34,008 nucleotides of DNA from a virus. The notes under the pieces were generated by a model. The model was not told the origin of the DNA, searched no databases, and saw nothing but the letters and a program-made list of their open reading frames with translations. The DNA lies in IMG/VR virus record IMGVR_UViG_3300027742_000027, positions 1-34,008 of that record; one strand, 5' to 3'. The translations under genes and the position numbers were made by a program. This document shows, piece after piece, positions 1 to 22,883 of this stretch (position 1 is the first letter of the stretch; the number at the start of each line of letters is the position of its first letter).

Positions 1-150
1 CATTGTTGGGAAACAAATATGCGAGTCGACGAAGCAATGCACTTAATAGCAGGACTAAGTAAAACGCTTGCTCGGTTAATGTGGGGAGGTAAGCGACAAG
101 CGACGATGTTTGTCAGGTCAGCAAAGATGAACGTGAAATTGAAAGATTAA
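1..150 (+). CDS. Partial ORF entering from the left edge, unknown
   Basis: The reading frame is open from base 1 and stops at TAA 148-150. It encodes at least 49 residues, basic towards the C-terminus, ending in NVKLKD. An ATG at 19 could be a start, but no ribosome binding site is visible before it, so the real start may lie outside the window. The next gene follows after 20 bases with a perfect ribosome binding site, which fits one transcription unit. I do not recognise the product, and with so little sequence it may not be coding. Confidence 0.35.
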   Translation, partial: HCWETNMRVDEAMHLIAGLSKTLARLMWGGKRQATMFVRSAKMNVKLKD

Positions 151-170
151 AATTTGAAAGGAGGTGAAAA

Positions 171-398
171 ATGGCTAAATATAAATTTGGTGAAAATTGG
201 AACAAAGAAAAAAGCGATTGGGTAAGAATTTTCTTTGCCGACGTAAATGACGAGCAAATGAAGCATTTAATGAAAGCGGAACGGGAGTTAATGAAAGCCG
301 GAGTTGATTTCGACACTGGTTTTGATGGGAAAGAAAGGGATTGGGATTTTGATTGGAGTTTGAAGGGGGCAAGAGTAAAAATTAAGACAAAGAAATGA
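171..398 (+). CDS. Small hypothetical protein (75 aa)
   Basis: The ATG is preceded by AAAGGAGGTGAAAA, a near-perfect ribosome binding site, which fixes the start. The product is a soluble, highly charged 75-residue protein with two basic stretches flanking an acidic, tryptophan-containing segment (GKERDWDFDW) and a lysine-rich tail. The centre (DEQMKHLMKAERELMKAG) should be helical. No family is recognised. The stop overlaps the ATG of the next small gene, so the two are probably translationally coupled. Base composition is clearly more AT-rich than in the genes from 683 onward. Confidence 0.7.
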   Translation: MAKYKFGENWNKEKSDWVRIFFADVNDEQMKHLMKAERELMKAGVDFDTGFDGKERDWDFDWSLKGARVKIKTKK

Positions 399-508
399 AA
401 GCAATCTTAGCTTTAGCCAAATATACTGGGGCGTTTGTTTTTGTGTTCTTGGTTTTTTGGTTTATTTATTGGTTAGAAAAAAAATATCTTAGAAGAGAAA
501 AGAGGTGA
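395..508 (+). CDS. Small single-pass membrane protein (37 aa)
   Basis: The ATG overlaps the preceding stop as ATGA. The 37-residue product has one strongly hydrophobic segment (about residues 11-27, rich in Phe, Val, Leu and Trp) followed by a basic tail (EKKYLRREKR). This is the layout of a single-pass membrane peptide with a cytoplasmic C-terminus. The next gene, also a predicted membrane protein, begins at the stop codon. The function is unknown. It could be a holin-like or host-membrane-directed early protein, but nothing in the sequence shows that. Confidence 0.5.
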   Translation: MKAILALAKYTGAFVFVFLVFWFIYWLEKKYLRREKR

Positions 509-513
509 TGATT

Positions 514-690
514 GTGAACAGATATAATTTTGAATTTAGAGGCAACATGATGGAGTATTTTCTCTACACTTTGGGTTGGGCTGTTTTGCTCATCATAACC
601 TTTGGTCTTGCCGTGCCGTTTTATGCGGTTTGGAATTTCAGGTGGTTTGCGGAGAATCTGAGAATAGTTAGATGGGAGGAAGATGAATAA
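514..690 (+). CDS. Small membrane protein (58 aa)
   Basis: I chose the GTG at 514 because AGAGGTGAT at 501-509 sits at ribosome-binding distance. GTG 505 and ATG 508 are in frame but lie inside that site. The 58-residue product has a short hydrophilic N-terminus, one hydrophobic segment (GWAVLLIITFGLAVPFYAVW) and an amphipathic, acidic C-terminus (ENLRIVRWEEDE). The shape recalls small bacterial DUF898/DUF6693-type membrane proteins, but that is only an impression. The next gene starts seven bases inside this one. Confidence 0.55.
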   Translation: MNRYNFEFRGNMMEYFLYTLGWAVLLIITFGLAVPFYAVWNFRWFAENLRIVRWEEDE

Positions 691-1252
691 AATCACTGCC
701 GAGCAAGGCGAAGGTGCTTTTGAGATCCACCAGAATATCCTGACCTTGAAAAGGCAAATGGGGATGGCCTTTGTGGAGCTCGGGAGGCTCTTGAAGCAGA
801 TCAGAGACGAAGGCTATTACCAGGTTTTGGGATATGATACCTTTTCGTCCTACGTCATCAACTCCGAGCTTGGGTTCAAGCGTAGGACAGCCTATTACTA
901 CATTGAGATTTATGAGTGGTATGTGGAGAAGCTGGCCTACGAAGCCCAATACCTGGCCGAGGTCGGCCAGGACAAGCTGTTGAGGATCTTGCCTATCATC
1001 AAAAAGGAATACGAACAGCTGGAGCTGAAAGACATCAGGAAAAAAACGGAGGAATTGATAAACGAGGTCAAGGAACTGCGGCCAGTCGACTTTGAGAAGA
1101 AATACAAGGATGACAAGAAGCAGGAGGGACACGAAGACTATCTCGCACCGCCGGAATATTTTAGGTGTAGTCGCTGTAACAAATGGGTGATCGTCGTGCC
1201 GAGAAAGGACTGTTGTGAAAAATGGCTTAAAAAGTTCGAAAAGAAAAAATGA
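683..1252 (+). CDS. Phage protein with HTH-like core and C-terminal zinc-binding knuckle
   Basis: The 189-residue product has an N-terminal part (residues about 10-85) of a type common in phage and plasmid proteins: a helix with 'ELGRLLKQIRDEGYY' followed by 'LGYDTFSSYV' and 'LGFKRRTAYYYIEIY'. This reads like a helix-turn-helix DNA-binding region. A charged helical linker follows. The C-terminus (about 158-182) has four cysteines in a CxxC plus CC arrangement (FRCSRCNKW, KDCCEKW), probably binding zinc. GGGAGGA precedes the ATG, and the start overlaps the upstream stop. A role in DNA binding or regulation is inferred from the fold only. Confidence 0.72.
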   Translation: MNKITAEQGEGAFEIHQNILTLKRQMGMAFVELGRLLKQIRDEGYYQVLGYDTFSSYVINSELGFKRRTAYYYIEIYEWYVEKLAYEAQYLAEVGQDKLLRILPIIKKEYEQLELKDIRKKTEELINEVKELRPVDFEKKYKDDKKQEGHEDYLAPPEYFRCSRCNKWVIVVPRKDCCEKWLKKFEKKK

Positions 1253-3391: not shown

Positions 3392-3622
3392 ATGGCAGAA
3401 AAGAAATACAGTTTAACCAAAACCGAAAGCGACAGGTTGAATAGCCTCCTGTCGGTGGCCCGAATTCAACAGGAGGTTCTCAACTCCGTGACGCAGAGTT
3501 ACAGGCTCTATATACTTGATGTTTTCAAAAGGTTGAGCCTGAAGCCGGCCTTGTTCAAAAACTCAAAGATCGACCTCGGCAGAGGCGAGTTAATTATCAC
3601 TGAACCCGAAAAGAAAAAATGA
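3392..3622 (+). CDS. Small hypothetical protein (76 aa)
   Basis: ATG 3392 lies directly after the upstream TAG. The frame is open further upstream, but that part overlaps the previous gene. The product is helical and soluble: 'KYSLTKTESDRLNSLLSVAR' at the start and 'LYILDVFKRLSLKPALF' in the middle, with a charged C-terminus. It resembles the small helical proteins that often precede a DUF1064 gene in phages, but no family name can be given. The downstream gene overlaps by four bases (ATGA), so coupling is likely. Confidence 0.58.
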   Translation: MAEKKYSLTKTESDRLNSLLSVARIQQEVLNSVTQSYRLYILDVFKRLSLKPALFKNSKIDLGRGELIITEPEKKK

Positions 3623-3969
3623 GAAAACAAAAATACTTTTCTAGGTTTACGGAGTGCAACCAGATGCACAGACACGCTTCAAGGAAAGAGGCGGCCAGGT
3701 GTAACGAGTTGACTCTGCTAGAAAAGGCGGGACAGATCGAGAAGCTGAGACAACAGCCCAAGTTTGTTCTGCAGCCGAGGTTCGAACTTAATGGCAGAGT
3801 GATAAGGCCGATTATTTATCAAGCCGATTTCTCCTACTACGACAAGGAGAGGAAAGCTTTCGTGGTGGAGGACGTCAAAGGCTACCGGACCAGAACCTAT
3901 ATGATTAAAAAGAAAATGCTTTTATACATTATGAGAACCAGAGAAGACTGGCTCTTTGAGGAGACATGA
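3619..3969 (+). CDS. DUF1064 family phage endonuclease-like protein
   Basis: The 116-residue length and the motif order match the phage DUF1064 family: 'RKEAARCNELTLLEKAGQI' (residues 22-40), 'LRQQPKFVLQPRF' (43-55), 'RPIIYQADFSYYD' (63-75) and 'VVEDVKGYRT' (82-91), then basic 'MIKKKMLLY'. E24, D70, E84 and K87 fit the (E)...D...ExK pattern of a PD-(D/E)xK nuclease. The family is thought to be related to this fold, but its role in phages is not settled. The start overlaps the preceding gene, and the following gene starts four bases before its end. Confidence 0.82.
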   Translation: MRKQKYFSRFTECNQMHRHASRKEAARCNELTLLEKAGQIEKLRQQPKFVLQPRFELNGRVIRPIIYQADFSYYDKERKAFVVEDVKGYRTRTYMIKKKMLLYIMRTREDWLFEET

Positions 3970-5330
3970 TGAAGGAAACAAAACGCATCGTTCCGCTTAA
4001 AGAAAAGATAGCCGTCGGGCTGCCGAGAGGTGCCGATACGGGGTACCGCTTTGAATGGATAGAGTCGCTCTTCAAGATGTTCGGCAGAAGTCCCTGCAAT
4101 TACCGAATGGTTTCCGCTGCGAAAGTCCATCACCTCGCCAGGAATGCCATCATCAAGGATTTCCTGGCGACTGACATGAACTACCTCCTGTTCATAGATT
4201 CCGACATGATTTGGGAGCCTAATAGTCTCGACCTTGCCTACCAGCTGATGCAGCACCCGATGGTTGACATTGTGACCGGGATCTACTTCACGAAAGGCGA
4301 GCCGCACCTGCCCGTCATCAAGAAGCTGAATTTGAAGGCCGGCTGCTATAACATCTTTATCGAGTGGGGCAACGAACCGTTCGAGGTTGACGGTGCCGGA
4401 ATGGGCTTTATGCTCATTCCGAGATACGTGCTGGAGAAGATGAAGCAGCCCATCTGCACGTGGGACGGCGGATTCTCCGAGGACTTGAATTTCTGCCTGA
4501 AAGCCAAGAAGGACTTCGGCTTCAGGATTTGGGCACATCCCCGCATCAAGCTTGGGCATATCGGCTCGAAGATCATCACCAGCTTCGACTGGGTCCAGCA
4601 GTTCAAACCTGGCATGAAGGCCTATATCCGCGAGGCGATGTATAACACCACCAACTATCTGAAGGAGGAGTTTCCCAACTGGAGAGAAACGCTGGGGATC
4701 CACCCGCTCGACTTCAAGAACATCAACACCAAGGAATACTGGGACAGAATCTACAAAGCCGAAGGCGGGCTGAAGACCTGGCGGGACTATCCCGGCAAGT
4801 ATGGCTTCGTTTCCAAGAAACTGCTAAAAGACTTGCCCGAAACCGCCAAGGTTCTGGAGCTCGGATGCGGAGTGGGCGTATTCGCCGCCTTGCTCCAAAA
4901 GGATCACCCGAAGTTCGAGATGTTCGGGATCGACATTTCCGAATATGCGATCGACTGTTTGAAGTCCCTGAAAATTGGCGGCGAGGTCGCAAAGATACCG
5001 CCCATCAACCAGCCGGACAAGAGCTGGGATACTGTCGTCGGACTGGAATTGATGGAACACCTTGACGAGAAGCCCAGAGAGGAGCTGGTCAGGGAAACCT
5101 ATCGGGTTCTGAAGCCAGGCGGCGTTGCCGTTTTCTCTTCGCCGGACAACATAATGCCTCCGGAGGAGCTTCCCGAACACCGAATAATGTTCAGCAGGAA
5201 AACCTACAAGAAGCTGTTTAGGAAGGCGTTCAAGGATGTTCGGGTGTTTTCACACAAGGCACAGGTATCTACCCATACGGGATTTGGCGAGGCACCGTTC
5301 CTGATAGCAGTCTGTAAAAAGGAAAAATGA
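3966..5330 (+). CDS. Fused GT-A glycosyltransferase / class I SAM methyltransferase
   Basis: The 454-residue protein has two enzyme domains. Residues 10-205 form a GT2-like GT-A glycosyltransferase domain: 'NYLLFIDSDMIW' with the metal-binding D78-x-D80, 'VDIVTGIYF', 'VDGAGMGFMLI', and 'GGFSEDLNFCLKAKKDFGF'. Residues 255-454 form a Rossmann methyltransferase: VLELGCGVGVFA (motif I, 296-307), GIDIS (321-325), ELMEHL (361-366) and RVLKPGGVAVFSS. The two domains are in one frame with no stop. A sugar transferred and then methylated on the same target is a natural reading. The target could be phage protein, phage DNA or host surface; none can be read from the sequence. GAGGAG precedes the start. 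A second, unfused GT lies at 18506. Confidence 0.85.
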   Translation: MMKETKRIVPLKEKIAVGLPRGADTGYRFEWIESLFKMFGRSPCNYRMVSAAKVHHLARNAIIKDFLATDMNYLLFIDSDMIWEPNSLDLAYQLMQHPMVDIVTGIYFTKGEPHLPVIKKLNLKAGCYNIFIEWGNEPFEVDGAGMGFMLIPRYVLEKMKQPICTWDGGFSEDLNFCLKAKKDFGFRIWAHPRIKLGHIGSKIITSFDWVQQFKPGMKAYIREAMYNTTNYLKEEFPNWRETLGIHPLDFKNINTKEYWDRIYKAEGGLKTWRDYPGKYGFVSKKLLKDLPETAKVLELGCGVGVFAALLQKDHPKFEMFGIDISEYAIDCLKSLKIGGEVAKIPPINQPDKSWDTVVGLELMEHLDEKPREELVRETYRVLKPGGVAVFSSPDNIMPPEELPEHRIMFSRKTYKKLFRKAFKDVRVFSHKAQVSTHTGFGEAPFLIAVCKKEK

Positions 5331-6004: not shown

Positions 6005-7336
6005 GTGAAACAAACAAAAGAATACAGGAAAATTGATGAACTTCGTAGTTGGAAAAAAAACCCACGCGGAATCACTACAAGTGGTTATAAACGGCTAGAA
6101 AAACAAATTAAAAAACTTGGCCAATATAAACCATTGTTAATAACTAATGATGGTGTAGTAATTGGTGGGAATATGCGACTTTTGGCATATCGAGAGCTAA
6201 AAGTGTCTCCTTTGTGGGTTAGTATTATAACTTTTGAAAAAGATGGAAATAGTTATGTTGCCTCAATCGACGGTGAGAAGCAGGCTGGAAAGTATGAAAC
6301 AATCGAACAAGGTATGCTTGAATATGCTCTATCAGATAACGATAGAGCCGGTTACTACGAGGAAGAGGAGCTAGCAGAATTACTGTATTCTTATAAAGAT
6401 AAAATTGTTTTACCAGATTACAGCATAGACATTGGAAGAGCTATTGATGGAAAAGAATTGCTCGATAAATATGCTCAAATGGAGGAAGATGAAGTTCCAG
6501 AGATTGCAGGAGGGAAGCCAAAGAGTAAATTAGGAGAGGTGTATCAATTGGGAAAACATAGATTAATGTGTGGAGATGCAACTAAAAAAGAAAATTTTGA
6601 GAAATTGATGGAAGGGAAAAAGGCAAACCTTATTTTTACAGATCCGCCTTATAATGTAGATTATAAATCTCCTGGTAGTGGGTTGAGTTATAATTCTAAA
6701 AAATTTGGAGGAACAGGAGGAAAGATGTTTAATGATGATAAAACTGATGATGAGGCAATTAAATTTTATAGTCAGGTACTAAAAAATCTTTACGAATTCT
6801 CTGCAGAGAATGTAACTATCTATTGGTGGTTTGCTAATACAAATAACTGGATTAATAGAAAAGCATTCAAAAACAGTGGATGGCATATGTCTCAGATTAT
6901 TATTTGGCTTAAAAACTCACTCGTCTTTAGCCGGGGGCAGGACTACCACCGGATTTATGAACCTTGTATGATGGGGTGGAAGAAAGAGAAAAAGCACTAC
7001 ACTAACAAAAAGATTTATAATTTAGTAGACGTATTTCATCTGGATTTTGATGAGTTTAGCGAGATGTTGGACGTTTGGTACGAAAAAAGAGACGTGGTAG
7101 CACAATATGTTCATCCTACTCAAAAGCCCGTGAGATTAGCGGAGAGGGCATTGAAAAAGAATAGTAAAGAGGAAGACATTGTATTGGATGCTTTCGGTGG
7201 CTCAGGTTCAACTTTAATTGCTTGTGAGCAAATGAATAGAAAATGTTATATGATGGAATTAGATCCCAAGTATGTAGACGTGATTATCAAGAGATGGGAA
7301 AATTATACTGGGAAGAAGGTAAAGAAAGTGTTGTAA
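6005..7336 (+). CDS. ParB-like domain fused to DNA methyltransferase (N6-A/N4-C)
   Basis: Residues 1-100 are a ParB/Srx-like N-terminal domain: 'IDELRSWKKNPRGI', 'QIKKLGQYKPLLI' and 'VVIGGNMRLLAYREL'. Residues about 175-443 are a DNA amino-methyltransferase: VYQLGKHRLMCGDA, the catalytic TDPPYNVDY (DPPY 213-216), then 'HPTQKPVRLAERAL' and the SAM-binding DAFGGSGSTLIAC (FGGSG 397-401). Catalytic motif before SAM motif is the beta-class order. This ParB-methyltransferase fusion is common in phages and probably protects phage DNA or alters expression; the recognition site cannot be read. The GTG start follows the G-rich tract. AT-rich composition suggests recent transfer. No partner restriction enzyme is adjacent. 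Confidence 0.9.
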   Translation: MKQTKEYRKIDELRSWKKNPRGITTSGYKRLEKQIKKLGQYKPLLITNDGVVIGGNMRLLAYRELKVSPLWVSIITFEKDGNSYVASIDGEKQAGKYETIEQGMLEYALSDNDRAGYYEEEELAELLYSYKDKIVLPDYSIDIGRAIDGKELLDKYAQMEEDEVPEIAGGKPKSKLGEVYQLGKHRLMCGDATKKENFEKLMEGKKANLIFTDPPYNVDYKSPGSGLSYNSKKFGGTGGKMFNDDKTDDEAIKFYSQVLKNLYEFSAENVTIYWWFANTNNWINRKAFKNSGWHMSQIIIWLKNSLVFSRGQDYHRIYEPCMMGWKKEKKHYTNKKIYNLVDVFHLDFDEFSEMLDVWYEKRDVVAQYVHPTQKPVRLAERALKKNSKEEDIVLDAFGGSGSTLIACEQMNRKCYMMELDPKYVDVIIKRWENYTGKKVKKVL

Positions 7337-9589: not shown

Positions 9590-11767
9590 ATGAAAAAAAC
9601 AAAAAAGTTCGCAACCAGAAAATCCTCGAGGCCAGAAATTGGTGCCTCTGGCGTGACTAACTTCCAAGGCGTAATTGATACGGATGAATACGTCGCAAAA
9701 CTTCAAGGTTCCACTCTCTATACCACGGTCGACAAGATGCGGTGGTCTGACGCTTCGGTTCAGGCCGCTCTCTTAATGTGCGAGCTCCCCATCCGCTCCG
9801 CAGAGTGGGATATTGAGCCGGCCTCGGAAGATACACAGGACCAGGAGATTGCCGAGTTTGTCAAGGATAATATGTTTAATGGTTTGACTATTCCGTGGGA
9901 GGACACGCTTCGGCAGATCCTTCTGATGCACCCATACGGTTGCATGGTTTTCGAGGTGATCTACAAGCTGACCGAGGATGGTAAGATCGGCTGGAGGAAA
10001 TGGGCGCCTAGACTGCCTAAAACAATTCAGAAGTGGAACGTGGACAAGAACGGAGAGCTGAGGAGCATTGCCCAGAGGACTTACAAGGACGATAATTTCG
10101 TTACCATTGAAATTCCGATAGAGAAGCTGATGGTTTTTGTCTACCGCAGGGAAGGAGATAACTACCTCGGCACCTCGATTCTCCGGCAGGCCTACAAGCA
10201 CTGGTTCTTCAGGGATAAATACTACAAGATCGACGCGGTAGCTACAGAGAGGCTCGGCATCGGCATCCCGATTGTCACTCTGCCCGACGGGTTTACCGAC
10301 GACGATTACAATGACGCCAAGAAGCTGGGCGAAAACCTGAGAGGCCACGAGAAGGCATACATCGTCAAGAAGACCGGCTGGGAGGTTGAGATGATGGATC
10401 TGAAGGCCAGCACAACGAAAGGCGTTCAGGAGATGCTCGAGCACCACACCAGGGAGATATTGAAGTCCGTGCTTGCCCAGTTCATCGACCTCGGCAGCAA
10501 GAGCACCGGCAGCTACGCTTTGGCGAAAGACCAGTCCCAGATTTTCCTGTCGGCTCTCGATTCGTCGGCGAAGCTGATCGAGGAGGTTATCAACGATGAG
10601 ATCAAGAAGCTGGTCGATTACAACTGGACGGTCGAGAAGTACCCGAAGCTCACCCACTCTGACCTGGGGAACAAGGACATCAAGGAGCTGGCCGAGGCGG
10701 TCCAGACCTTGACATTCTCGGGAATGCTAACCTCCGATCCGGAGACGGAAGACTACCTCAGGAAGGTCTTGAAGCTCCCAGAGAAGCCGGAAGGCAGCAG
10801 GGTGCAGCCGGTTGTACAGACCAAGAAGAAGGTAGGCAAACCAGAAGAGGAAGGCCAGTTTAAGGAAAAAAAAAAGACTAAATACCACCGGGAATTGACG
10901 AGAGTAGAGACGCGAGTCAGGTTCGACGAGATCAGAGACTTTATGGATACTGCGGAAAGGGAAACCGTCGCCAAAATGCTTTCGGTTCTTAATCGGGAGA
11001 AAGCCAGGCTGATAACTCTTTTCGAGGATGCGATAAAGAGGAAGGACTTCGCCGACCTGCACAGGATATCCTGGCAGCTGAAGGGACAATATGCCGCCGT
11101 TTTCAGGGAGCAAATCAAGAAACTCTTTGAATATGGGAAACTGAAGTCGAGCTACGAGATCAAGAAGCCGGCACCCATCACCACCGCCGAGATAAACAAG
11201 CAGGTAACGCAGAGGGCATTTTACCTCGCGGACCGCCACGAAAAACAGCTCCTGAAGAACATAAAGGGAATCGCTGCGGTCGCGATGATGGATCCTTCGG
11301 TTACCGACGAACAGGCTTTAGCAGAAGTTACCTCCGGGATTGACTCGTTCTTCAACAAAAATGTCCCGGCCACTGCCGCATTAATAACCTCGGACGAGAT
11401 GAATAGCGGGAGGATTTACACTTTCAAGGCCTTCAAGGACGACCTCTACGGATACCAGTGGTCGGCCATCCTGGACGGTGCGACCTGTAATTATTGCCGA
11501 AGCATGGACGGTCGGGTGATCGGGGTCGACGACAAGGCGTTTTCGGCCTACAAGCCAGGAGCGGTTCACTTTCACTGCAGGTGCATCTGGGTGGCGATAA
11601 CAAAGGAAGAGGAAAACCCGCCGCCTTTCACTGGTATTCCCGAAACGCTTAGGCCGCAGTCGGCAGTTCCAGCATGGGAGTTCAAGGACTTGGAATACCC
11701 GTTGCCTGGAAGCGGCAAGAGGAAGATGCCTTACGGAATGGGAGTTTATAAAGAGAGAGTGGAATAA
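9590..11767 (+). CDS. Portal protein fused to MuF-like minor head protein
   Basis: The 725-residue product joins two head proteins. Residues about 15-400 are a DUF935/Mu gp29-like portal ('SDASVQAALLMCELPIRSAEW', 'YGCMVFEVIY', 'DNYLGTSILRQAYKHWFF', 'KSTGSYALAKDQSQIFL' in sequence). A lysine-rich linker (about 405-440) leads to a Mu gpF/SPP1 gp7-like domain, recognised by 'YQWSAILDGATCNYCRSMDG' (from residue 622) and VHFHCRCIW, with C633, C636, C663 and C665 as probable metal ligands. The portal forms the 12-fold DNA channel; MuF proteins help head assembly or are injected. The two are separate genes in Mu. The frame is open throughout, without an internal start preceded by a strong ribosome binding site. 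Confidence 0.9.
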   Translation: MKKTKKFATRKSSRPEIGASGVTNFQGVIDTDEYVAKLQGSTLYTTVDKMRWSDASVQAALLMCELPIRSAEWDIEPASEDTQDQEIAEFVKDNMFNGLTIPWEDTLRQILLMHPYGCMVFEVIYKLTEDGKIGWRKWAPRLPKTIQKWNVDKNGELRSIAQRTYKDDNFVTIEIPIEKLMVFVYRREGDNYLGTSILRQAYKHWFFRDKYYKIDAVATERLGIGIPIVTLPDGFTDDDYNDAKKLGENLRGHEKAYIVKKTGWEVEMMDLKASTTKGVQEMLEHHTREILKSVLAQFIDLGSKSTGSYALAKDQSQIFLSALDSSAKLIEEVINDEIKKLVDYNWTVEKYPKLTHSDLGNKDIKELAEAVQTLTFSGMLTSDPETEDYLRKVLKLPEKPEGSRVQPVVQTKKKVGKPEEEGQFKEKKKTKYHRELTRVETRVRFDEIRDFMDTAERETVAKMLSVLNREKARLITLFEDAIKRKDFADLHRISWQLKGQYAAVFREQIKKLFEYGKLKSSYEIKKPAPITTAEINKQVTQRAFYLADRHEKQLLKNIKGIAAVAMMDPSVTDEQALAEVTSGIDSFFNKNVPATAALITSDEMNSGRIYTFKAFKDDLYGYQWSAILDGATCNYCRSMDGRVIGVDDKAFSAYKPGAVHFHCRCIWVAITKEEENPPPFTGIPETLRPQSAVPAWEFKDLEYPLPGSGKRKMPYGMGVYKERVE

Positions 11768-15922: not shown

Positions 15923-16552
15923 ATGGCTGTAGAATATTTTGAGACGCCATCGGACTCTGTCGGCATGGCCGAGAGCGAAGCTAAGGATGTGGGATTGGCA
16001 AAATCCGGCAGTCTTTCTATCTCGGAAGCGTTAACCAAGGAAATTACAAAGCCTTTGTCTGACATTGTTTCTTTTGCTGACTCCGAAATTGAAGCTCCAG
16101 AGAAGGCACTAGCCGACTCTATGGCTGTTTCTGAGTCATTAGCCAGCCAATGGGATGCCTTTTTAACCCCAACAGACAACATCTCAATTGTTGAACAGTT
16201 GGCTAATCTAATCAGTATGGTGACCTCGGACAGCATCAGTTTTGCCGAATCTATCTCCAAGGTTGCGGTGGTTTTGGGACTTACCGATAATCAAACCTTC
16301 GCGGAGGAGATCGCCAAAAGTGCTGTTTTGGGTAAAACCGATACGCTTTCAATAGCAGAAGCGACCGCCAAAGCGATGGGTTTGCACAAGGACGACAGCC
16401 AGGAAATAACAGAAGCCGAGGCGTGGTTTTTCAACAAAGTAATTTCCGACCAGATTACTCCGTTTGTCGATTCTAGTATAGAATATGATGTTACCCAAGA
16501 GGTGTGGTGGGGCAATATTAAGTGGAGAACCGCCTGCCACGGCGGGTTATAA
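15923..16552 (+). CDS. Serine-rich repeat protein, about 10 SDS-type units (209 aa)
   Basis: AAGGAGC precedes the ATG. Nearly the whole protein consists of a degenerate unit of about 17-20 residues with a core of the form [L/K/P]-[S/T/A]-D-x-x-[S/x]-[I/F]-[A/S]-E: examples are LSDIVSFADSE, LADSMAVSESLA, TSDSISFAESI, LTDNQTFAEEIA and KTDTLSIAEATA. The C-terminal 40 residues are different (IEYDVTQEVWWGNIKWRTAC). The same repeat fills the protein at 20523 and part of the tail hub at 30191. A fibrous virion appendage is likely; its fold and ligand are unknown. Confidence 0.72.
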   Translation: MAVEYFETPSDSVGMAESEAKDVGLAKSGSLSISEALTKEITKPLSDIVSFADSEIEAPEKALADSMAVSESLASQWDAFLTPTDNISIVEQLANLISMVTSDSISFAESISKVAVVLGLTDNQTFAEEIAKSAVLGKTDTLSIAEATAKAMGLHKDDSQEITEAEAWFFNKVISDQITPFVDSSIEYDVTQEVWWGNIKWRTACHGGL

Positions 16553-17145: not shown

Positions 17146-17834
17146 ATGAAAGCAGGATTACAAATTGTAGGTCATGGACGTGCTGAGTTGCGGGATGAGC
17201 TAGGAAAAATCAAGGAGCTTCGTGAGTTCGACAATGTCTTTACGGATGTGGGTGATGCTCACGTTGCCGACCAGATGGCCTCGACTCCAGGCGAGTCAGT
17301 AATGTCCGATATGGCTATCGGAACTGTGACCACTACTTTGAGTGCAACTGACACTCAGTTGGGCGGAGAGTCAGACAGAAACACTCTGACTTCCTTTACT
17401 CAAGGTGCTGGCGGTGACGATAACAAAGTGGTTTATATTGGTGACTGGGCAGCCGCTGATGGCACTGGTGCTATCACCGAGGCCGGAATCTTCAACAGCC
17501 ACACTGCCGACTCTGGCACAATGCTTTGTGCTCAGACGTTCAGTGTCATCAATAAAGGTGCTAGCGATACGTTGCAGATTACTTGTAGAAACGAGTCGCT
17601 CTACCGTAAGGTAGAGATGAAACTCCGTGAATTCGGGGAAAATCTCTTTGAGACAATCCCGAGCCAAGCAGAGGTGGTTAAACCACTTCGGGCGTGTGTA
17701 GAGACTATGGGCGGAGCAACCAAGCAATTGGCTGAAGAGATAGTCCGAACTGCATGGCGACATGCAGAACTAGGCAGAAATGGCCTAGTCCTCAATTAAG
17801 AGAGTAACAAAGTGGGACTGTAACGTTCGGTTAA
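17146..17834 (+). CDS. Intron-split virion-type protein, join(17146..17584,17815..17834), 152 aa
   Basis: ATG 17146 is preceded by AAGGGAGGTGAAAATAAT. Exon 1 encodes 146 residues: 'VFTDVGDAHVADQMASTP', 'DMAIGTVTTTLSATDTQLGG', 'GAITEAGIFNSHTADSGTML' and 'TFSVINKGASDTLQIT'. Phage proteins of this type normally end just after DTLTIT with a short strand WTxTxx. Here the frame instead runs on for 71 codons of unrelated basic sequence to TAA 17797-17799. Removing the group I intron 17585-17814 joins T to GG and gives TGG-ACT-GTA-ACG-TTC-GGT-TAA, that is WTVTFG-stop, the expected ending. The function is likely structural (head or tail surface). A plain ORF call of 217 residues from this ATG would be wrong at the C-terminus. 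Confidence 0.85.
17585..17814 (+). ncRNA. Self-splicing group I intron (230 nt)
   Basis: All core elements can be read in order. P1 pairs exon ACTT plus G (17581-17585) with CGAGT (17592-17596), with a U-G pair at the splice site. P2 is CTCTACC-GTAA-GGTAGAG (17599-17616). P3 is CTCCG (17623-17627) with CGGAG (17712-17716). P4 is TCGGG (17633-17637) with CCCGA (17658-17662), inside the hallmark P/Q sequences TTCGGGGAAA and AATCCCGAGCCAAGC. P5 is TCTC/GAGA (17643-17653). P6 spans 17671-17689. P7 is GACTAT (17703-17708) with ATAGTC (17740-17745), inside R/S elements GTAGAGACTAT and AAGAGATAGTCC. P8 is CCAA-GCAA-TTGG (17720-17731). P9 is CTGCATG-GCGA-CATGCAG (17750-17767). P9.1 is ACTAGGC/GCCTAGT (17769-17789). 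The intron starts after U and ends in G. No P7.1/P7.2 is present; P10 is weak. No ORF is carried inside. Confidence 0.92.
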
Positions 17835-17925
17835 AACTAAGTGTTTTAGCTAAGCACCAAGGAACAAACTTCAAGTGGAATTAAATTCAAATGGATTAAA
17901 GTTAAAAGGCGATTAGGGCTTGGGT

Positions 17926-17954
17926 TTGATTGTAACTTTTGGTTGGTGTATAAT
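17926..17954 (+). promoter_or_regulatory. Promoter of the HNH endonuclease gene
   Basis: TTGATT (17926-17931) and a perfect TATAAT (17949-17954) are 17 bases apart. Transcription should start about seven bases after the box, at 17961, which is the A of the HNH gene ATG. The transcript would then be leaderless or nearly so, in keeping with the absence of any ribosome binding site. The gap from 17835 also holds short palindromes (GTGTTTTAGCTAAGCAC at 17841-17857 and GAATTAAATTC) of unknown meaning. Confidence 0.6.
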
Positions 17955-17960
17955 TGGGTT

Positions 17961-18506
17961 ATGAGACCTAGTTGGCACTGGGCTAACAAGCCCGAGCCCG
18001 AACGCCGAAGGATTTTACAAAAAATGTCGATTGGTTGGGGAAAGAAGCCGAAGACTGGCAAGTGGCTAATTTGTCCTATTTGTGGCAAGCGATTTTATAG
18101 GAAACACTGTCATCTTATAAGGTCAAAAAATCATTATTGTTCACCACAGTGTCATACAAAATCTAAAAAGGGCAAAATTCCACCCAATCTTAGACAGGCA
18201 CAGAAAAATAGTCCTATTCAAAAAGGTTCTAAAAATGTAAATTGGAAGGGTGGACTGCCAAGGCCGTATTCCAAAGAATGGAATGGCACGCTAAAGCACA
18301 AGATATTTGTAAGAGATAGAGGACGATGCCAAATCTGTGGCAAGATTGGCAAGAAGCGGAGCGACTTGGTTTGCCACCATATCGACTTTGATAAGAAGAA
18401 TTGCCAGCTTGAAAATATACAATTACTATGTAGGTCTTGTCATATGAAAGTTCACTGGCAAGCCAATAGAGGAGCACCAGGACTTAAAAGGTATAATAAA
18501 AACTAA
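17961..18506 (+). CDS. Free-standing HNH homing-type endonuclease (181 aa)
   Basis: The protein has an N-terminal zinc finger (CPICGKRFYRKHCHLIRSKN then YCSPQCH; C38, C41, C60, C64), a linker with KGSKNVNWKGG typical of phage homing endonucleases, and a C-terminal HNH nuclease: CQICG (C123, C126), VCHHIDFDKKN (H139-H140), 'QLENIQLLCRSCHMKVHW' (N152, C157, C160, H161, H165). It would nick or cut DNA at a long target. I chose ATG 17961; an in-frame GTG at 17943 lies upstream of the TATAAT box. The gene is AT-rich, sits 127 bases after exon 2 of the intron-split gene and has its own promoter. The stop overlaps the next ATG. These are signs of a mobile gene that may mobilise the nearby intron. 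Confidence 0.88.
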   Translation: MRPSWHWANKPEPERRRILQKMSIGWGKKPKTGKWLICPICGKRFYRKHCHLIRSKNHYCSPQCHTKSKKGKIPPNLRQAQKNSPIQKGSKNVNWKGGLPRPYSKEWNGTLKHKIFVRDRGRCQICGKIGKKRSDLVCHHIDFDKKNCQLENIQLLCRSCHMKVHWQANRGAPGLKRYNKN

Positions 18507-19171
18507 TGAAAAAATCTAGCATTTTAGTAGCTGTCACCCACACAGGTAATACGGTGACAGGTCTTGAGGCCAAGCTCTCGAAGTGGATTTATGAGAGCGA
18601 ATACAAGGCGGAGCTTTACTTCTCATATATTAATCCCACCTATTCGAACAGGAACACCGTTTGCAAATATTTCTTGGAAAAAACGAAACACACGCACCTG
18701 CTGTTCATAGATTCCGACACCATTCCTTTCAGCAATCCTCTGAAAATGGTTAAGCACGACCTTGACGTGGTCGGTGGCGTCTATCCTATGTGGCGAATTG
18801 ACCATTTCGAGTGGCTGGCGATGGATGAGATGCCCGATGGTCAATATAAAACTACTTCTAAAAGGAAGGGATTAGTTGAGGTTGACGGTCTTGGTGCTGG
18901 TTGTATGCTGATTAAGAGAAAAGTTCTAGAGGCGATTAAAGCTCCTTTTGCCGACTTAATCCGTGAAAATGGCACACGCTCCTTGGGACACGATTACTAC
19001 TTCTGCAAGAAGGCCAAGAAGAAGGGATTTAAGGTTTGTGCTGATTGGGATGTTCTCTGCGACCACGTCAAACAAGTTCCTCTGGTGACGATGGTCAAAG
19101 CGTTGAAAAAGGTATACGACGAAGGAGTCAAGGAGGGCAAGAGGCAGAGCTTGACAGAGGATGTTTTATAA
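18506..19171 (+). CDS. GT-A type glycosyltransferase (221 aa)
   Basis: The 221-residue single-domain enzyme has 'YSNRNTVCKYFLEKTKHTHL', then LLFIDSDTIPF with D69-x-D71 (metal and nucleotide-sugar binding), 'DLDVVGGVYPMWR', 'EVDGLGAGCMLIKRKVL' and 'SLGHDYYFCKKAKKKGFKVC'. This is the same motif series as the N-terminal domain of the fused enzyme at 3966, so the two are related but divergent. It lies among virion surface genes, and its ATG overlaps the HNH stop, so the HNH insertion may have displaced its original upstream neighbour. The acceptor is unknown; serine-rich repeat proteins encoded nearby are an attractive candidate. Confidence 0.82.
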   Translation: MKKSSILVAVTHTGNTVTGLEAKLSKWIYESEYKAELYFSYINPTYSNRNTVCKYFLEKTKHTHLLFIDSDTIPFSNPLKMVKHDLDVVGGVYPMWRIDHFEWLAMDEMPDGQYKTTSKRKGLVEVDGLGAGCMLIKRKVLEAIKAPFADLIRENGTRSLGHDYYFCKKAKKKGFKVCADWDVLCDHVKQVPLVTMVKALKKVYDEGVKEGKRQSLTEDVL

Positions 19172-20522: not shown

Positions 20523-22883
20523 ATGGCTAAATATAACGCCTTCAAGTACGGCGACGGCACTAACTATGGCAAGAACGCTTCTCTAAGCGACTCTCAGTCT
20601 ATTACTGAAAGCTTTGTTAGAACCGTTACTTTTGCTCTCGAACTTGGCGATTCTCTTTTAATCGCCGAAGTTGAGGCCAAAATATTCACATTGGCGTTGA
20701 CTGACCTATTGTCAATCGCAGAGTCGGTGGCGAATAAGTCAACTTTAAACATATCTGACACTCAATCTATAGCAGAGAGTCTAGCTATTGTTAATGAATT
20801 TTACAGAAGTTTGGATGATGCTATAACTTTCGCCGAGTCAGAAGTTGAAAAACCAGTAAAGATTCTATCCGATAACCAATCAATCGCAGAAGATATTACG
20901 AAAATAGCGATTGAATTGACAAAAAGTGATAGCCAGTCAATTAGTGAAGCGTTGGCTAAAGATTTTGAAAAAGCAATCTCCGACGGCCTCTCGATAGCGG
21001 ATAGCGAGGTAGAGACCATTAAGCTGGTTCTAGCTGATTCTCTAAGCATTTCAGAGAACCTTGCCAATGAGACTATGATTGGTTTGAGTGACAGTATTGG
21101 CATTTCCGAAAACCTTGCCAGAACAGTAGAATTTTACCTTTCGCTTTCAGACTCTGTTGCGTTTAGCGATGCTGCCGGTATGGACATTGGGATCCCGCTT
21201 TCCGACAGTATTTCCATTGCCGAGGCGGTTTCGCTCGAGCCACAGCCGAGGCTTTCTGATTCAATAACATTTTCAGAGGTGATTAATGATTTTGAGGTGG
21301 TAAAAAGTTTAGCGGATTCATTGGCTCTTGCCGAAGCAAAAACCTTCACAATTAGTTTAGTCAAATCCGACAACCAGATGATTGAGGGATTAGTCACCGC
21401 CAGGGCGATAGTTAAAGGTTTGTCGGATGCTTTGAGTATCGCGGAAGGATTGGAGACAGCAATATCTCTTGGTGCCCAGCTTTTGGACAGCATCCCGATC
21501 GCCGAGTCTCTTGCCAAAACAACTGGCAAAAAGTCTTCGGATACCTGTGATTTGTTCGACGAGATAACCAAAGGTGCAACCAAGTCACTCGCCGAAACTC
21601 TGGCGATTTCCGAGACTCTTGCCAACCAGACCACGCTGTCTCTTTCAGACAGCATATCGATCACCGAAAGCGAGATTGAGACAACCGCCCCGAAACTAGC
21701 CGACAGTGTTGCCATTTCGGAGAGTCTTACCAAGATAATAACCAAATCTCTGGGCGATTCCGTTTCGATAGCCGAATCAGAACAGAAGGCAATAACTGTC
21801 TCGCTTGCCGAGAGCGTTCCGATATCAGAGGCGGTGACCAACGGTGCATCTCTTGCACTGTCAGACCAAATTTCAATCTCTGAAAGCTCCGCCAGAGTTA
21901 ATGAATTCTACCGGACCCCAACTGACACTCAGAGCATAGCTGAGACAGAAGCTAAGGACATTATAAAGGTTCTGGCCGATTCCGTCGTCTTCTCGGACAG
22001 CGAGATCACAAAGAGAGTCGAACACTTGGAAGACTCTCTGACGCCAATCGCTGAAAGTTCGGTCAGAAACATGGTCAAGAATCTTTCAGACTCTCTGCCA
22101 ATCGCGGATGGCGAAGCAGAAGTTGTCAGCTTGGTCCTCTCTGACGCTATCGCAATTAGCGAGGACATTGCCGAGGCAATTGAATTTAAACGGTCTCTGG
22201 CCGATTCTGTGGGTTTTAGCGAAGGTTTGGTTTGGGAAATCGGGCTCTTCAAGACCGAAACTCTGGCAATCGCTGAAACTCTGGCGAACCAGGCAACGCT
22301 CAGGTTGGCCGACAGCGTCTCTATCACAGAGTCCGAAACCGAAGCGGTGGAGAAACCAGCCTTGGTAGATGCGGTCAGTATCACCGAAGAAATTGCCAAA
22401 ACTCTTGTTAAAATTCTGGTTGAGAGTTTGTCGATTGCCGATAGTGAGATTGAAGTCATAACCCTCAATCTTACGGATGTAATTGATTGCACAGAGAGTT
22501 TAGAAAAAACGGCAAGTAAAAAATTAGCAGACGCTTTTACTATTGCTGAAAGCTTGGAAACTAGGCAGTTTATAGAAATCGATGATTCAGTCGCAATTAG
22601 TGAAGCGTTTAGCAGTCAAGCAGATTTTATTAGGGAATTTTCAGATTCCATTTTAATAGCAGATTCAGTGATTCTTTACGTGGTAATGCCCTTGTCGGAC
22701 GGAATTAGTATTTCTGAAAGCATTTCTAAGAAGCCAGGCAAGGTTTTTTCGGAGTCTGTTAGAATAAAAGAAGAATGGACTAGTGATTGGGCTTGGACTT
22801 GCAGGCTTGGTCGAAAAACATTTTTAAGACAGATAATAACAACCAGAGCAAGGAGAATACCTTTAAGGTCTAAATATCAATGA
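20523..22883 (+). CDS. Large serine-rich tandem-repeat fibre protein (786 aa)
   Basis: AAAGGAGAAAAATAG precedes the ATG. The first 20 residues have AFKYGDGTNYGKNAS, closely matching the N-terminus of the tail hub protein at 30191 (TFKYGERKYGKNVS). Residues 21-749 are about 40 degenerate repeats of mostly 18 (17-20) residues with consensus L-[SA]-D-S-x-S-I-[AS]-E-[SN]-x-x-x-x-x-x-x-x; examples are LSDSISITES, LADSVAISESLT, LSDSLPIADGE. The C-terminal ~40 residues are basic and aromatic (TSDWAWTCRLGRKTFLRQII). The repeats alternate hydrophobic I/L/A with polar S/D/E and would suit a solenoid or elongated fibre. No signal peptide or enzyme motif is seen. A virion appendage is inferred from the N-terminal match with the hub. 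Confidence 0.78.
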   Translation: MAKYNAFKYGDGTNYGKNASLSDSQSITESFVRTVTFALELGDSLLIAEVEAKIFTLALTDLLSIAESVANKSTLNISDTQSIAESLAIVNEFYRSLDDAITFAESEVEKPVKILSDNQSIAEDITKIAIELTKSDSQSISEALAKDFEKAISDGLSIADSEVETIKLVLADSLSISENLANETMIGLSDSIGISENLARTVEFYLSLSDSVAFSDAAGMDIGIPLSDSISIAEAVSLEPQPRLSDSITFSEVINDFEVVKSLADSLALAEAKTFTISLVKSDNQMIEGLVTARAIVKGLSDALSIAEGLETAISLGAQLLDSIPIAESLAKTTGKKSSDTCDLFDEITKGATKSLAETLAISETLANQTTLSLSDSISITESEIETTAPKLADSVAISESLTKIITKSLGDSVSIAESEQKAITVSLAESVPISEAVTNGASLALSDQISISESSARVNEFYRTPTDTQSIAETEAKDIIKVLADSVVFSDSEITKRVEHLEDSLTPIAESSVRNMVKNLSDSLPIADGEAEVVSLVLSDAIAISEDIAEAIEFKRSLADSVGFSEGLVWEIGLFKTETLAIAETLANQATLRLADSVSITESETEAVEKPALVDAVSITEEIAKTLVKILVESLSIADSEIEVITLNLTDVIDCTESLEKTASKKLADAFTIAESLETRQFIEIDDSVAISEAFSSQADFIREFSDSILIADSVILYVVMPLSDGISISESISKKPGKVFSESVRIKEEWTSDWAWTCRLGRKTFLRQIITTRARRIPLRSKYQ
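20583..22769 (+). repeat. About 40 degenerate ~54-bp coding repeats
   Basis: The DNA of the fibre gene is a tandem array of units of mostly 54 bases (51-60). Units are well diverged at DNA level but conserved at protein level (core SDSxSIAES). Some are closer to each other: ETLANQTTLSLSDSISITES and ETLANQATLRLADSVSITES within this gene, and ETLANQTTLKLSD in the gene at 30191. This points to unit exchange by recombination followed by drift with selection on the protein pattern. Confidence 0.75.

Follow-up and report, generated by a model that had tools for sequence, protein, structure and literature searches.

Collaborative homing has been described for S-PM2 psbA/F-CphI (PMC6083498), and further precedents come from T3/T7-like, cyanophage, and ICP1 loci; the origin of such pairs has been stated to be unclear (PMC10448857). 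The locus analyzed here, part of a 34-kb virus record from IMG/VR (below, "the window" denotes the whole stretch of 34,008 nucleotides), resembles the S-PM2, T3/T7-like, and ICP1 terminase (terL) systems in that an ORF-less intron lies beside a free-standing endonuclease gene, apparently with a single site for both. It differs from them in the interrupted gene, which is tail associated, and in the nuclease, which belongs to the HNH family, whereas F-CphI carries an Endo VII motif and the ICP1 enzyme is a T5orf172 nuclease. Moreover, the relatives of the window include loci with the HNH gene only and a duplicated gene end, and the cleavage step is presumed here. A free-standing HNH nuclease near an intron-bearing gene is also found in the trans homing of T4 mobE and I-TevIII in nrdB; unlike that case, the window intron contains no remnant of an endonuclease ORF of its own.

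A covariance search of the whole window with Rfam matched only one family, RF00028, at positions 17575 to 17767 on the plus strand (65.7 bits against a gathering score of 50; E value of 1.1e-14 for the whole window), and the alignment was full length (model positions 1 to 253), running from P1 to P9. The first-pass annotation had called a group I intron here and proposed this search as a check; the score above the gathering threshold and the complete P1-to-P9 set bear the call out, and the objection that no covariance hit exists falls away. All pairings from P1 to P9.2 could be written by hand on the window sequence (Table 1), including the U.G pair of P1 at the 5' splice site, the P3/P7 pseudoknot, and the terminal intron G, and the folding z-score was -4.9. 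The boundaries proposed earlier, 17585 to 17814, also hold, with a U as the last base of exon 1 (17584), a G as the last base of the intron (17814), and agreement with the gene endings of relatives. On sequence grounds, a complete group I intron sits at 17585 to 17814.

Table 1. Features of the intron-bearing virion gene and the adjacent HNH gene (window coordinates)
Feature	Position	Strand	Support or remarks
Exon 1 of small tail-associated virion gene; 146 codons plus first base of Trp codon	17146..17584	+	PHROG 5417, PHROG 4176
ORF-less group I intron, 230 nt	17585..17814	+	RF00028; covariation with L041/L005; absent from ~135 relatives
P1: exon ACUU (17581-17584) with guide GAGU (17593-17596), U.G at splice site	17581..17596	+	
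P3: 17623-17628 with 17711-17716, P4-P6 inside	17623..17716	+	
P7: 17703-17708 with 17740-17745, enclosing 3' strand of P3 and P8	17703..17745	+	
P9.1 and P9.2 hairpins; P9.2 loop holds in-frame stop (17797-17799)	17769..17802	+	
Exon 2: GG ACT GTA ACG TTC GGT TAA, (W)TVTFG-stop	17815..17834	+	Agrees with ends of intronless relatives
Degenerate insertion-site copy upstream of HNH gene, GGTTTGATTGTAACTTTTGG	17923..17942	+	15/20 to a relative's site, p 0.0075; weight matrix p 0.008
sigma70-like promoter upstream of HNH gene, TTGATT-17-TATAAT, overlapping target-like copy	17926..17954	+	10/12 matches; chance expectation 0.6 sites in region
Free-standing HNH endonuclease, 181 aa; two CxxC pairs before intact HNH motif	17961..18506	+	Pfam HNH (25.3 bits, over cut-off); PHROG 1271, 3e-16
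Next conserved gene, glycosyltransferase-like	18506..19171	+	Directly after virion gene in HNH-less relatives

The same intron was found at the same base of the same codon in two more viral contigs, L041 (47 kb; complete intron of 228 nt at L041 positions 3422 to 3649, scoring 71.6 bits with RF00028) and L005, whose end falls inside the intron. Our comparison covers these three known copies, one of them cut short. P1 covaries across the exon-intron boundary, the guide changing along with the wobble base of the exon (ACUU/GAGU in the window, ACCU/GGGU in L041 and L005), with the U.G pair present in all three. The hand-written structure pairs in 95.7% of cells across the three introns, against only 33 to 44% for slid control structures, and contains nine two-sided pair changes, a number reached in 0 of 500 shuffles (mean, 4.0). 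Since three sequences are few, the covariance match remains the main structural evidence; together with the z-score and the covariation, it rules out a chance RNA fold. It might be supposed that the element is a degenerate group I intron that has lost splicing and left a truncated tail protein, as the L041 version can be read in frame; this is very improbable, however, because the core helices are all intact, the U.G pair of P1 is conserved, changes are compensatory, and nucleotide identity between the window and L041 is 78% over the intron versus 66% in exon 1. A search of the phages collection with the window intron returned other group I introns in partial matches only. Stretches of 50 to 90 nt are ~78 to 84% identical to introns of Lysinibacillus phage LysYB1 (major capsid gene) and Aeromonas phage 25 (gene 43B).

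Removal of 17585 to 17814 joins 17584 to 17815, so that the protein ends in ...DTLQIT-WTVTFG-stop (predicted C-terminal peptide of the spliced product, ...DTLQITWTVTFG), with only 20 nt, stop codon included, left for exon 2. Left unspliced, the window ORF has 225 residues, including a 71-residue tail. As an intronless set, we used the best of the many IMG/VR relatives of the exon 1 protein, collected in batches of 22, 69, and 45, a few of which are near-identical. These ~135 relatives continue from ...IT straight into W-x-x-T, with a stop within a few codons, and the 71-residue tail was found in none of them. The ending after excision is thus that of the intronless relatives, from which it follows that the intron interrupts a conserved tryptophan codon (T|GG) and that the junction is correct as judged from the protein. 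The corrected C terminus WTVTFG-stop had been predicted beforehand, along with a search for intronless relatives; that search returned the same W-x-x-T ending, and conservation of the tail as protein, the remaining objection, finds no support among them. Shifting both ends by 1 nt (ACTTG|TAG...GTGG|GACTG) gives an identical mRNA; 17584/17815 is favored by the U|/G| rule and by the U.G pair of P1.

The exon 1 frame is open for 71 codons of the window intron and for all 76 codons in L041, while the other frames hold six to eight stops; the L041 intron is stop-free in this frame and rejoins exon 2 (TVTFG-stop) in frame, forming one seamless ORF. Given this open frame, ribosomes could enter the intron core of unspliced RNA. 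Taken at face value, the open frame in both loci would favor a real unspliced protein of 225 residues, the RNA structure being due to chance or regulatory. We find this barely credible: besides the missing tail in intronless relatives, the covariance match, and the P1 covariation, the substitutions that separate the window intron from that of L041 are spread over the first, second, and third codon positions of the exon 1 frame as 14, 21, and 15, and the lack of a third-position excess indicates that the tail is not a selected protein. Relatives and codon positions together rule out the tail as a real protein; on the modeled fold (see below), the unspliced window protein would also lose its last beta strand. 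For gene callers, the 20-nt last exon leads to a wrong C terminus in the window, while the intron of L041 is simply invisible.

The exon 1 protein matches PHROG 5417 (unknown function; 1e-18) and PHROG 4176 (tail fiber; 3e-6). An AlphaFold2 model of the protein of an intronless relative (L002; pLDDT of 81, pTM of 0.77) is rich in beta structure, with its last strand at residues 142 to 151. The intron position corresponds to the codon for residue 147, inside this strand, in line with the earlier remark that the last beta strand is split. The sole significant match to a solved structure was a domain of a tail chain of Haloferax tailed virus 1 (HFTV1; E value of 1e-6, TM score of 0.58 on the query). 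The host gene is best read as encoding a tail-associated virion protein; it has the terminase, portal, and capsid genes on its upstream side and the tape measure gene on its downstream side. No homologues of the exon gene were found in genome_contigs. Elsewhere in the window, portal and head-morphogenesis (MuF-like) domains are apparently fused in a 725-aa protein (9590 to 11767; PHROG 113 and PHROG 241), a glycosyltransferase-like domain is fused to a methyltransferase-like domain (3966 to 5330), and a ParB-like domain is fused to a DNA methyltransferase (6005 to 7336). Two further genes (15923 to 16552 and 20523 to 22883, the second encoding 786 aa) specify proteins of repeated units like LADSISISESLA, possibly fiber or adhesin repeats.

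The first-pass annotation had regarded the compact, ORF-less 230 nt and the location in a structural gene as unusual, and neither view could be maintained. The 2,513 introns of Jug phages average about 206 nt (PMC12363816), and introns in virion genes are established, being carried by capsid and tail genes of cluster J mycobacteriophages and by the capsid gene of Tuc2009 (PMC3706429), as well as by a Lysinibacillus phage capsid gene. Like the window, the cluster J phages LittleE and BAKA (265 nt in the latter) and lactococcal Tuc2009 have a capsid or tail gene interrupted by a group I-type intron, at insertion sites unrelated to that of the window. The RF00028 introns of LysYB1 and Aeromonas phage 25 share with it the P1-P9 core, the exon-end U, the intron-end G, compactness, and the lack of an ORF, but reside in other host genes and at other sites. 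As far as we searched, novelty lies not in the size or the virion gene location but in where the intron is inserted, in its HNH partner, and in the series of staged states seen around the site. In LysYB1 (OP628075.1, positions 141479 to 143758), the intron (58.2 bits) is at the 3' end of the major capsid gene and an HNH-like ORF lies downstream, an architecture as in the window; the annotation terminates the capsid protein within the intron and omits the C-terminal exon, and in a trial splice of this intron exon 2 was out of frame. The P9/P9.1 motif also recurs in an intron-like stretch within the 23S rRNA gene of a bacterium (Actinobacteria MAG VAWK01000018.1, positions 1 to 1119), which suggests that related introns are found in rRNA genes as well as in those of phages.

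What had been overlooked is the most informative part of the locus, the adjacent HNH gene, which starts 126 bp past exon 2, and to that extent the first account was incomplete. H139, H140, D142, N152, and H161 of its product are among the positions invariant in five homologues, and its AlphaFold model is of low confidence (pTM of 0.44). An orthologue occupies the same place in L041, and others occur in L002/L004 and L013. The HNH gene accompanies the intron in the window and L041, i.e., in both of the intron-bearing loci that extend far enough to reveal it; three contigs (L002, L004, and L013) have it without the intron, and L006, L007, L008, and L010 have neither, which makes it an optional gene between conserved neighbors. 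The HNH proteins are 50 to 64% identical, whereas the virion proteins of the window and L002 are 92% identical, indicating that the HNH gene has its own history. A 12/13-base match between N-terminal codons of the window HNH gene and the native spacer of L006 is probably fortuitous. Diverged members of the same HNH family (~31% identity, MKPKWHW start) were seen between head-tail connector genes in two further contigs (L119, positions 1068 to 1613; L120, positions 73 to 618), and these suggest a wider family of HNH cassettes among virion genes.

In L002/L004, exon 1 and exon 2 are followed by the HNH gene, a second exon 2 (ACC TGG ACG GTA ACC TTT GGT TAA, encoding TWTVTFG-stop), and the native spacer (p<0.001). 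A hairpin in the spacer after this second exon 2 is the element found directly 3' of the gene in HNH-less L008, L003, and L010, and the second copy is the native gene end. From the duplicated end and the native spacer, we infer that the cassette came in no more than a few bases from the intron point, bringing a replacement end. Judging by the position of this cassette, the intron and the HNH gene appear to use one site, with cleavage presumed to occur there. The window itself differs: its HNH gene occupies the spacer past exon 2 rather than the site as such, and there is no displaced exon 2 after it.

The intron, the protein-level junction, the intact HNH gene, the presence/absence pattern, and the cassette insertion at the intron site in relatives are established. 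Our preferred reading, to which we assign a probability of roughly 0.78, is that a self-splicing intron and a partner HNH endonuclease move by collaborative homing, with splicing, cleavage at the exact site, and joint transfer as its presumed steps. The intron would leave the mRNA by two guanosine-initiated transesterifications, restoring the last beta strand (WTVTF) while encoding no protein. The HNH enzyme would most likely nick or cut alleles that lack the intron, at the T|GG insertion site or close to it, after which recombinational repair with the donor would copy both the intron and the HNH gene into the recipient. The intron would serve as a splicing-neutral hiding place that blocks the target in the donor. 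The chief obstacle to this reading comes from L002/L004 and L013, which such donor protection does not account for: there, an intact HNH gene lies beside an apparently uninterrupted site, and their enzymes must be inactive, be tolerated nickases, or need a sequence that differs there.

The linkage of an ORF-less intron with an adjacent free-standing endonuclease gene rests on two loci, the window and L041, and the intron could be real and spliced with the HNH gene an unrelated neighbor homing alone into the intergenic region, the intron being immobile or having moved otherwise. Intergenic HNH genes are very common in phages, and both the HNH-positive, intronless contigs and the separate history of the HNH gene (50 to 64% identity, versus up to 92% for the virion gene) fit such a neighbor; we nevertheless consider it unlikely, because the L002/L004 cassette went into the gene itself, at the intron site, rather than into the intergenic region and because both complete intron-bearing loci have the HNH gene.

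Apart from collaborative homing, a further trace of the site may be present upstream of the HNH gene. L041 contains a target-like sequence (ACTTGAnnnGTAACnTTTGG) in the interval from the stop codon to the HNH start, and variants of it occur in the window, L002, and L013, each of the four copies overlapping a plausible sigma70 promoter; apparent relics remain in L007, which lacks the HNH gene, and in L011, which has a short HNH-like ORF. The best ungapped matches to real insertion sites (14 to 15 of 20 positions) gave p values of 0 to 0.0075 in these six loci, which are homologous and hence not independent trials, versus 0.26 to 0.99 in five HNH-less controls, and a weight-matrix test was positive in five of the six. 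An exact-substring test of the HNH leader against the target was negative in window-family loci, so the idea of an operator rests on inexact matching. I-TevI represses its own synthesis through an operator that resembles its homing site and lies over the endonuclease promoter (PMC2988022). As in that system, the target-like sequence of the window overlaps the endonuclease promoter and is altered at its center; in contrast to it, the window endonuclease is free-standing, the likeness is weak (14 to 15 of 20 against real sites), and the operator role is putative. The copy could stem from a displaced gene end, an operator of the I-TevI type, or both. In another virus (IMGVR_UViG_3300010391_000129, positions 40 to 1060, minus strand), a related ORF-less group I intron interrupts a capsid-like gene close to its end, and a zinc finger/NUMOD-like ORF lies downstream; an 11-mer (TGGGGCTTTGC) recurs without mismatch in the promoter region of this ORF and in exon 1 close to the insertion site (p of 0.0035), an observation on which nothing here depends.

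We tentatively speculate, regarding this as possible but on balance doubtful, that the first step was an invasion of the 3' end by the cassette, at what later became the intron site, with exon 2 codons of its own; that the displaced or copied target became a promoter/operator; and that the enzyme represses itself through a noncleavable target mimic. If this is true, the phage family keeps the stages of the build-up: the empty site, the HNH gene only with a duplicated gene end, the HNH gene with the intron, and a promoter relic without the HNH gene. One insertion site occurs among related phages in several states (empty, HNH gene alone with a duplicated end, HNH gene plus intron, and probable relic), which makes the order of events in the formation of such a pair testable.
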